Assembly (NCBI GenBank): GCA_016866785.1
Contig: VGLH01000020.1
Coordinates: 1 to 38,973 of the forward strand
DNA from: Candidatus Poribacteria bacterium
Lineage (GTDB): Bacteria > Poribacteria > WGA-4E > GCA-2687025
Direction: 5' to 3'
DNA: 38,973 nt
Part shown: positions 9,871 through 30,644 of the stretch, one piece after another
Numbering within the stretch: position 1 is the first letter of the stretch
How the letters are laid out: each line of letters begins with the position of its first letter
Translations under genes and position numbers: made by a program
Notes under the pieces: model-generated
Databases searched by the model: none
What the model was told of the DNA's origin: nothing
Seen by the model: the letters and a program-made list of their open reading frames with translations, nothing else

Positions 9871-10275
9871 ATGCTAGACCGCCTTCACGAGCACATCGTC
9901 CAGGAACTGCAGCAGAACGCTCGTTCCGAGTCCATTTTCGTACTGACCGCAATTGCGCTGAACCTCATCACGGTCGGCGTCAACTCCGGCCTGGCGTCGG
10001 ATATGACCGTACGAACCGTCGCCGTGCTGGTCGTGACGGTGTCCCTTGTGGTCGTCGTTAACATGGTCGCGCTGATGGGCTTGCTTCGGGGTCGCGATTC
10101 GAAGACGCGCCTGCTCAACGGGCTACTCAAGATGTACCGCGACCAGAACATCGCGGAGTATTACGACGGCGGGCTGCTCGACGACTACCGGATGCGCTAT
10201 CGCCTGTTGGTCGTCGGCGTCCTCGCCACGGGCGCGGCGTCCATCCTCATACCGGCGGTCATCCTCTCGACGTAG
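9871..10275 (+). CDS. Small integral membrane protein
   Basis: 134 residues with three hydrophobic segments: about 22-43 (IFVLTAIALNLITVGVNSGL), about 47-72 (a valine-rich stretch) and about 109-133 near the C-terminus. Between the second and third lies a charged loop with YRDQNIAEYYDGGLLDDY. I do not recognise the family. The ATG follows GGAGG at 7 bases. The stop TAG at 10273-10275 is part of the four-base duplication flanking the element at 10276-10476. The 195-base gap to the divergent oxidoreductase gene holds its promoter, which I could not identify. Confidence 0.75.
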   Translation: MLDRLHEHIVQELQQNARSESIFVLTAIALNLITVGVNSGLASDMTVRTVAVLVVTVSLVVVVNMVALMGLLRGRDSKTRLLNGLLKMYRDQNIAEYYDGGLLDDYRMRYRLLVVGVLATGAASILIPAVILST

Positions 10276-10476
10276 TGGTCTGTCAGAGTGATGGTTAGCG
10301 TTACCTGATGCGCGAAAGAGCAACCACCAACGTGTCGCTCCCGCGAAAGCGGGAGCCTAGAGTCTCTGGATTCCCGCTTCCTGGCCCCGCGAAGGCGGGG
10401 CTCGCGGGAATGACGATTCCGAAAGCCCTGCGCGAAAGCCCATCGAGGTTGTCGCGATAACCACCATGACAGACCA
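10276..10476. mobile_element. MITE-like element with terminal inverted repeats and GTAG duplication
   Basis: The 201-bp segment starts TGGTCTGTCA (10276-10285) and ends with the exact reverse complement TGACAGACCA (10467-10476). Beyond these the ends stay related: TGATGGTTAGCG against TGGTGGTTATCG, 10 of 12 matching. It is flanked on both sides by GTAG (10272-10275 and 10477-10480), as expected of a target-site duplication. It has no convincing gene. The inside carries the dispersed hairpin repeat at 10337-10414. Confidence 0.65.
10337..10414. repeat. Dispersed hairpin repeat (GCTCCCGC-type), copy 1
   Basis: GCTCCCGC, loop GAAA, GCGGGAGC (10337-10356) is followed by a nested pair: GCCCCGC/GCGGGGC (10384-10390 and 10395-10401) inside ATTCCCGC and GCGGGAATGAC (to 10414). 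A related copy is at 30590-30644. The pattern resembles dispersed 'CGGGAATGAC' palindromic repeats seen in many GC-rich bacteria. Confidence 0.75.
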
Positions 10477-10633
10477 GTAGCACCACTGCGCCAGTCGCGT
10501 GAATCACAATCCCGTCAGACACCGTTCTTTGTGCACTCTGGGAGGAGGTGAGGCTGCGGGGCAGGGCGGCCACTTGGTCATTCCGCCGCGACATCGGGCG
10601 ACGGATCGGTGTTCCGCCTGTGTGACGAAACCG

Positions 10634-12546: not shown

Positions 12547-14295
12547 TCATCGTGCCCAGGGCGTCAAGCGTCCGCCCTCGACGACACGGTAGCGCCGCCG
12601 TACGGCGACGTTCTCGTAGCGATCCACACCACCGCCCAGCCACCTGACCTCGATCCGGTCGATCTTCTCCGCGTCACCCAGCCCGACGACGACGCGCGTG
12701 TCGCTGTGCGACAGATAACCGCCCGTCGAGCCGACGTCGAACGTCTGCGTCATACCCCCCGCCGTCACGGTCACGACCGCCCCAACGTGCGTATGTGAGG
12801 TCCCGACCAGATGGATGGCGACCCACGACCGCGCGTTCCCGCCTTCGTTGACCAGCAGGTTCGGACGCCCGTTCCAGTTCGTCGTGACGATGTCCGTGTC
12901 GCCGTCGTTGTCGAAGTCGGCGAAGGCAACACCCCGCCCGACGCTCGGTTCCGCGAGCGCGTCCCCGCCGTCGACGACGCGGAACCCGCTGCGTCCGGTG
13001 TTCGTCAAAAGCGTCTTGGGCTGCGCGAACCGCTGCTCCGGCTCGAACCGCTCGATGTTATCCTGCAGGTGCCCGTTGACAGTCACCAGGTCCTTCCAGC
13101 CGTCGCCGTCGAGATCGACGAGCCCGACGCCCCAGCCCATCAGCGAGTAAGAGACCTCCGCGACGCCGGACGATTCGGCGATGTCGGTGAAGAACCCGTC
13201 GCTCTCGTTCCGGTAGACCGCGTTGAACTCGTTCTGGAAGTTGGTCACGACGAGATCGGGATCGCCGTCGTTGTCGAAGTCCCCACAGGCGACGCCCATC
13301 CCTGCCTGCTCCTCCCCCGTCGCGCTCACCGCCGCGCCGGAGAGCAAGCCCGCCTCCTCGAACGTCCCGTCGCCTCGGTTCAGCCAGAGGAAGTTGGGGT
13401 CGAGGTCGTTGGCGACGTAGAAGTCGATGAGCCCATCGCGGTTCAGGTCGGCGGCGACGACGCTGAGCCCGTGGCGCGGAGGCGCGGAGGCGATGCCGCT
13501 CGACACGGAGACGTCCTCGAAGGTTCCGTCGCCCCGGTTCCGAAAGAGCGCGTCGGATGCCCCCGGATAGACCTGCGGATGGCAATAGACGGACACGCCG
13601 TCCCGCTCGCAGCGGACGTCCCTCTCGACGGAGTAGTCCGCGTATCGGGCGACGTAGAGATCGAGCCAACCGTCGTTGTCGATGTCTGCGAAGACGCATC
13701 CCGTGTTCAGCCCAGGCGCCGCGACGCCCGCCCGGTCCGTGATGTCCTCGAACATCCCGTCGCCCCGGTTCCGATAGAGCGTGTTCCTGCCGAAGTTCGT
13801 GACGAACAGGTCGAGCCAGCCGTCGCCGTCGATGTCGCCGACGGCGCATCCCAGCCCGTAGCCCGTGTCGCCGACACCGGCGCGGTCGGTCACGTCCTCG
13901 AAGGTTCCGTCGCGCCGGTTCCGATAGAGGACGTTCCGCGAGGTCGGCTCGAACGGCTCGATCAACCTGCAGCCGTTGACGAAGTAGAGATCGACCCAGC
14001 CGTCGGCGTCGTAGTCGAACGCGGCGAGCCCCTGCCCGATGGTTTCCACCATGAGCCGGCGTCCGCTCGCCCCGTCCGTCGGGATGAAGTCGATGCCTGC
14101 TTCCGGCGTGCGGTCAGTGAATGTCACGTCGGCGGCAGGCAGGACGCACGCCGGCAGGAGCATCAGCAGGACGGCGAGCCAACGGCGCACCCGTGAGGTC
14201 CAGAGCGAGGTCCAGAGCGAGGTCCAGAGCGAGGTCCAGAGCGAGGTCCAGAGCGAGGTCCAGAGCGAGGTCCAGAGCGAGGTCCAGGCGGTCAC
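12547..14295 (-). CDS. FG-GAP/VCBS repeat protein with ASPIC/UnbV C-terminus (CRTAC1 type)
   Basis: 582 residues. About seven FG-GAP-type blades each carry a calcium-binding D-x-D-x-D-G-x-x-D loop (for example DYDADGWVDLY, DFDNDGDPDLV, DLDGDGWKDLV), predicting a secreted beta-propeller. The C-terminus WVAIHLVGTSHTHVGAVVTV and IEVRWLGGG fits the ASPIC/UnbV domain of CRTAC1-like proteins. The hydrophobic WLAVLLMLLPACVLPAA is a signal peptide, but it is preceded by seven WTSL units from a 12-bp tandem repeat. The GTG at 14293-14295 overlaps the TPR gene stop as GTGA, which supports it; a GTG at 14188-14190 would start cleanly at the signal peptide and leave the repeat uncoded. No good ribosome site is seen for either. 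It pairs with the TPR gene upstream, as often in soil and marine bacteria. Confidence 0.88.
   Translation of the reverse strand: MTAWTSLWTSLWTSLWTSLWTSLWTSLWTSLWTSRVRRWLAVLLMLLPACVLPAADVTFTDRTPEAGIDFIPTDGASGRRLMVETIGQGLAAFDYDADGWVDLYFVNGCRLIEPFEPTSRNVLYRNRRDGTFEDVTDRAGVGDTGYGLGCAVGDIDGDGWLDLFVTNFGRNTLYRNRGDGMFEDITDRAGVAAPGLNTGCVFADIDNDGWLDLYVARYADYSVERDVRCERDGVSVYCHPQVYPGASDALFRNRGDGTFEDVSVSSGIASAPPRHGLSVVAADLNRDGLIDFYVANDLDPNFLWLNRGDGTFEEAGLLSGAAVSATGEEQAGMGVACGDFDNDGDPDLVVTNFQNEFNAVYRNESDGFFTDIAESSGVAEVSYSLMGWGVGLVDLDGDGWKDLVTVNGHLQDNIERFEPEQRFAQPKTLLTNTGRSGFRVVDGGDALAEPSVGRGVAFADFDNDGDTDIVTTNWNGRPNLLVNEGGNARSWVAIHLVGTSHTHVGAVVTVTAGGMTQTFDVGSTGGYLSHSDTRVVVGLGDAEKIDRIEVRWLGGGVDRYENVAVRRRYRVVEGGRLTPWAR
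14195..14287. repeat. 12-bp tandem repeat, seven units plus 9 bases
   Basis: Seven exact copies of GAGGTCCAGAGC (14195-14278) are followed by GAGGTCCAG. On the minus strand it encodes (WTSL)7WTS at residues 4-34 of the FG-GAP protein. Because 12 is a multiple of 3, changes in copy number keep the frame. Confidence 0.95.
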
Positions 14296-30530: not shown

Positions 30531-30589
30531 CGGCGTCCCATCTCTGCCGCCCGCGCGGTCACCTTGTCGCTCCTACGCCCCATCCCGTC

Positions 30590-30644
30590 GCTCCCGCGAG
30601 AGCGGGAGCCCAGGGTCCTGCATCCCGACTTCCGCGGGAATGAC
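30590..30644. repeat. Dispersed hairpin repeat (GCTCCCGC-type), copy 2
   Basis: GCTCCCGC, loop GAGA, GCGGGAGC (30590-30609), then CGCGGGAATGAC ending at 30644. The stem is identical to 10337-10356. It lies 60 bases after the UPF0210 stop. The nested second hairpin of copy 1 is absent. Confidence 0.7.

Follow-up and report, generated by a model that had tools for sequence, protein, structure and literature searches.

A short non-autonomous element with IS630-type ends at the stop codon of a membrane protein gene in Candidatus Poribacteria

Results

Structure and position of the element

The window (the whole analysed stretch of a Candidatus Poribacteria contig, 38,973 nucleotides) contains a gene for a predicted membrane protein whose reading frame terminates at the TAG of a GTAG tetranucleotide (Table 1). 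This GTAG is followed directly by a 201-bp element with exact 10-bp terminal inverted repeats, and a second GTAG lies at its far side. The length, ends and flanks described in an earlier sequence-only reading were verified, as was the placement of the stop codon within the left GTAG. That reading also took the ends to be related over about 25 bases; the exact match covers 10 bp, and beyond this the arms align only with gaps, although their pairing is retained in the predicted fold (z = -6.1). No transposase is present inside the element, which is noncoding, repeated in the genome and well within the size limit of MITEs (under ~500 bp), in agreement with its description as a MITE.

Table 1. Features of the element, its surroundings and the elements found at stop codons in the same genome
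Feature	Position	Strand	Basis or remark
Upstream gene, 134-aa predicted membrane protein	9871..10275	+	Reading frame; orthologues in two same-family genomes
Left target duplication GTAG	10272..10275	.	10273-10275 is the TAG stop codon; flank comparison across copies
Non-autonomous IS630-type element (MITE), 201 bp (very probable assignment)	10276..10476	+	Second full-length and partial copies; ends are those of an IS630-family element
Left terminal inverted repeat TGGTCTGTCA	10276..10285	+	Sequence
Internal REP/BIME-like hairpin unit GTCGCTCCCGCG...CGCGGGAATGAC	10334..10414	+	Dispersed matches; 17-copy alignment
Right terminal inverted repeat TGACAGACCA	10467..10476	+	Sequence
Right target duplication GTAG	10477..10480	.	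Sequence and flank comparison
Stop-codon element	Window copy	+	End of the 134-aa membrane protein gene
Stop-codon element	C14		End of molybdopterin oxidoreductase gene
Stop-codon element	C44:7705		End of small transporter-like protein gene
Stop-codon element	C160		Penicillin amidase gene end at one flank, a different reading frame at the opposite flank
Stop-codon element	C44:4113		End of polyprenyl synthetase gene

Orthologues of the upstream protein (50-51% identity) were found in two genomes of the same family, G001 and G003, and both end at the identical position, which bears out the claim that the insertion left the protein intact. Downstream of the G001 orthologue the element is absent, while in G003 the contig stops at the gene end. 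For the empty site that was to be sought in relatives, the comparison was one at the protein level between same-family genomes. The element-free junction is predicted to read CTCTCGACGTAGCACCACTG.

Taken by itself, the structure in the window does not decide the matter. In Markov sequence, 0.32 structures of this kind (exact 10-bp inverted repeats spaced 60-400 bp apart, with 4-bp flanks that are identical) are expected per window; two were observed. A chance inverted repeat with a chance GTAG match, formed around a hairpin that is itself a dispersed repeat, was therefore weighed against the occurrence of the element elsewhere. A second full-length copy (C207:1981-2181), 91% identical to the first, lies at an unrelated site in the window's genome (G000) with CTAG on both sides. 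Partial copies in contigs C57, C14 and C119 all have the right end in common, followed by CTAG, and a search by the ends returned roughly a dozen short elements that share the termini and differ inside (for example C15:6272-6404, C44:18620-18762, C6:32052-32191 and C160:2426-2596). The genome search suggested by the sequence-only reading thus yielded full-length, partial and ends-only copies, at unrelated sites and with target duplications of GTAG/GTAG, CTAG/CTAG and others. These copies, together with a transposase-bearing element with the same ends (see below), confirm that the element is real and make a chance origin a negligible prospect.

The 201-bp element, searched in 98 relatives, matched one other genome, weakly, and a search of 83 genomes of the class for short elements with the exact ends gave pairs in only two. 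A distant member of the class, G075, has MITEs of its own (L134, L138, L140 and L149), whose ten-base ends match those of the window element and whose interiors are unrelated.

At the C207 copy (L002 1497-1701), the upstream frame seems to run through the CTAG into the element (CCT AGT GGT...), which may furnish a new protein end there.

The internal hairpin as a dispersed repeat in its own right

Positions 59-139 of the element consist of a pair of inverted REP-like palindromes. This segment matches, whole or in part, about 40 further places, nearly all of them lacking the MITE ends, and 17 copies could be aligned. The internal hairpin, which the sequence-only reading had already called dispersed, is a repeat separate from the MITE. 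At no fewer than nine places (at least 9) the unit adjoins or sits within another dispersed repeat, whose end resembles AGGGCTGTTTCATGAACG. Elements of this AGGGCTGTTTCATGAACG-like kind carrying the hairpin unit occur at L007, L008, L009, L011-L015, L017 and L021, and are unrelated to the MITE ends. The window holds a further, degraded copy of the hairpin at 30587-30633, where the MITE ends are absent. Other short elements with the same ends hold a dispersed hairpin of another kind (29-115 of L064), and the MITEs seem to be end pairs placed around captured or invading hairpin repeats.

An IS630-family element with the same ends

The search for a transposase with matching ends, also suggested by the sequence-only reading, led to an IS630-family element in G003 and to a relic in the window's own genome. 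In G003 (contig C240, L139) the arrangement is CTAG-TGGTCTGTCA...TGACAGACCA-CTAG, with 1200 bp between the CTAGs. The transposase is split over two frames that overlap, the first with an HTH and the second with a DDE_3 domain, and the DDE_3 frame scores above the cut-off of the NCBIfam IS630 model; more copies of the element ends lie at contig edges of the same genome. The relic, on contig C129, is a decayed IS630 transposase gene (DDE_3) whose last codons and stop overlap the terminal repeat of the MITE in the form GTAACAGACCAC, with two changes over 13 bases. A second IS630-type gene, on C145, is interrupted by an in-frame stop and is not bounded by these ends. An intact transposase gene with these ends was sought in the window's genome (assembly ~95% complete) and was not found. 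The MITE has only the ends in common with the G003 element, so it did not arise from the IS found by simple internal deletion.

Very probably the segment descends from an IS630-family (Tc1/mariner-like) IS as a non-autonomous element, which inserted at a GTAG at a gene end, with duplication of the target. The repeat family, the ends in common with a transposase-bearing element, the strict CTAG preference and the recurrence at stop codons are all directly supported. An IS630 transposase acting in trans would have bound the ends and excised the element, which would then have inserted at an NTAN site, usually CTAG and here the GTAG at the end of the upstream gene.

An IS5-type origin was entertained on account of the CTAG duplication and was abandoned in view of the IS630 element with identical ends. 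MITEs of IS5-group elements also duplicate CTAG-like four-base targets, and MITEPsy1 of Pseudomonas syringae, a 100-bp MITE suggested to derive from ISPsy2, is reported with four-base duplications of CTAG or YTAA (PMC3189936). MITEPsy1 resembles the window element as a short MITE with a CTAG-type target and differs from it in its ends. Here, however, it is an IS630-family transposase, not one of IS5, that the identical ends flank, and the IS630 relic in the window's genome terminates in the same repeat, so that an IS5-group parent is most improbable.

Target preference and landing at stop codons

In other phyla (cyanobacteria, Bacteroidales and Lachnospiraceae), elements with a related transposase show a similar end pattern, with CTAG flanks on both sides in about 20 IS copies. 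For a related IS of Scytonema NIES-4073, CTAG stands on both sides of 24 of 25 copies (the odd copy abuts another IS), a count that carries no information on duplication length. Among ten plasmid relatives the ends were readable for only a few and were uninformative. TA lies within the CTAG/NTAN target in nearly all copies, and the clade targets CTAG very strictly. A CTAG preference is known for IS630 of Shigella sonnei, from Tenzen and Ohtsubo (1991) as cited in PMC2170065.

At least five of 12 elements in the window's genome are placed precisely at the stop codon of a gene (Table 1). CTAG is scarce in the window, with 28 occurrences against about 52 expected from trinucleotides; by a tally that rests on author-chosen gene models, 15 of these are inside genes, one is in the MITE, five are intergenic and seven are stop codons. 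Outside gene interiors, stop codons accordingly make up 7 of the 12 CTAGs. The frequent landing at stop codons would follow from the fact that over half of the gene-sparing CTAG sites are stop codons, and we infer that CTAG preference combined with selection against in-gene hits accounts for it, a special mechanism being unnecessary. Through its target choice, the transposon would in this way find at stop codons most of the places where it can land without harm, at which genes survive and acquire a structured 3' end. A literature search for a stop-codon preference of such elements found no description of one. TAG terminates 19 of the 39 gene models in this window of 65% G+C, a proportion that seems high.

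With the target duplicated, the left copy would still supply an in-frame TAG and keep the exact end of the upstream protein, and the 3' untranslated region of the gene would now consist of the element's hairpins. The predicted RNA of the element folds strongly (z about -6). A terminator with a T run was looked for at the element and not found, and an Rfam search of the element gave sub-threshold matches only.

Duplication of two or four bases

At CTAG targets, duplication of TA and duplication of CTAG give an identical picture, and only copies at other sites discriminate between them. A four-base duplication is masked at CTAG because C and G are the expected terminal bases too. If TA alone is duplicated, the element is G-TGGTCTGTCA...TGACAGACCA-C, the last base of the window copy has mutated from C to G, and the stop codon is made up of the target TA and the G of the element. 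Every CTAG copy is compatible with both models. Two copies fit TA only, C6 (TTAG/CTAG) and C160 (CTAG/CTAT), the ends being damaged in both. TA duplication has moreover been found in experiments with IS630 and ISY100 (PMC2170065).

The remaining non-CTAG copies speak against this reading. All four bases are repeated at the window copy (GTAG/GTAG) and, in G075, at L134 (GTAG/GTAG) and L138 (CTAA/CTAA). L058 (CTGT/CTAT) comes close to a four-base repeat, as do L158 (CTAT/CTTAT) and L060 (CTAC/CAAC), whose alignments require a one-base gap and which the core figure omits; the flanks of L149 are mixed (ATAG/GTAG). A likelihood comparison with a single mutation rate favoured four bases (delta lnL about 14; permutation p about 0.0009), a strength that is overstated, as the copies were author-selected and not fully independent (L134 and L149 are related). 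The flank comparison weakened the TA-only duplication with which the reading had started; we regard it as possible, if somewhat doubtful. Duplication of four bases is favoured by the flanks and falls short of proof.

For the strict-CTAG IS630 clade as a whole, the flanks suggest with about even chances that all four target bases are duplicated and not TA alone. Should this hold, the rare non-CTAG insertions, such as that at the GTAG of the window, would expose the four-base duplication, TAG stop codons would be duplicated whole with preservation of host genes as a by-product, and the IS630-type DDE transposase would join the ends to the target with a four-base stagger. To our knowledge, the duplication mechanism is considered uniform across IS630/Tc1/mariner, from which a four-base stagger would depart.

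Comparison with known elements

The window element appears ordinary in kind, its closest analogue being RUP of Streptococcus pneumoniae, for which mobilisation by IS630-Spn1 has been proposed. RUP is likewise ~100-200 bp long and noncoding, with inverted ends matching an IS630-family element and a TA-containing target (PMC2229807; PMC3049150). Its host and parent element are different. The window element, unlike RUP, has a strict CTAG target, an independent REP-like hairpin and a favoured four-base duplication. ISMae29, whose type represents IS630-family relatives with CTAG targets in cyanobacteria, has a transposase about 60% identical to the parent-type transposase over 204 residues. Unlike IS630 and ISMae29-type elements, for which the published rule is TA duplication, the window element has no transposase. 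A literature search for MITEs in Poribacteria found nothing.

Elsewhere in the window, a perfect 12-bp tandem repeat of 7.8 copies (14195-14287) lies within the start of a gene on the minus strand (12547-14295), whose protein starts MTAWTSLWTSLWTSL...; variation in the length of this repeat would preserve the frame.
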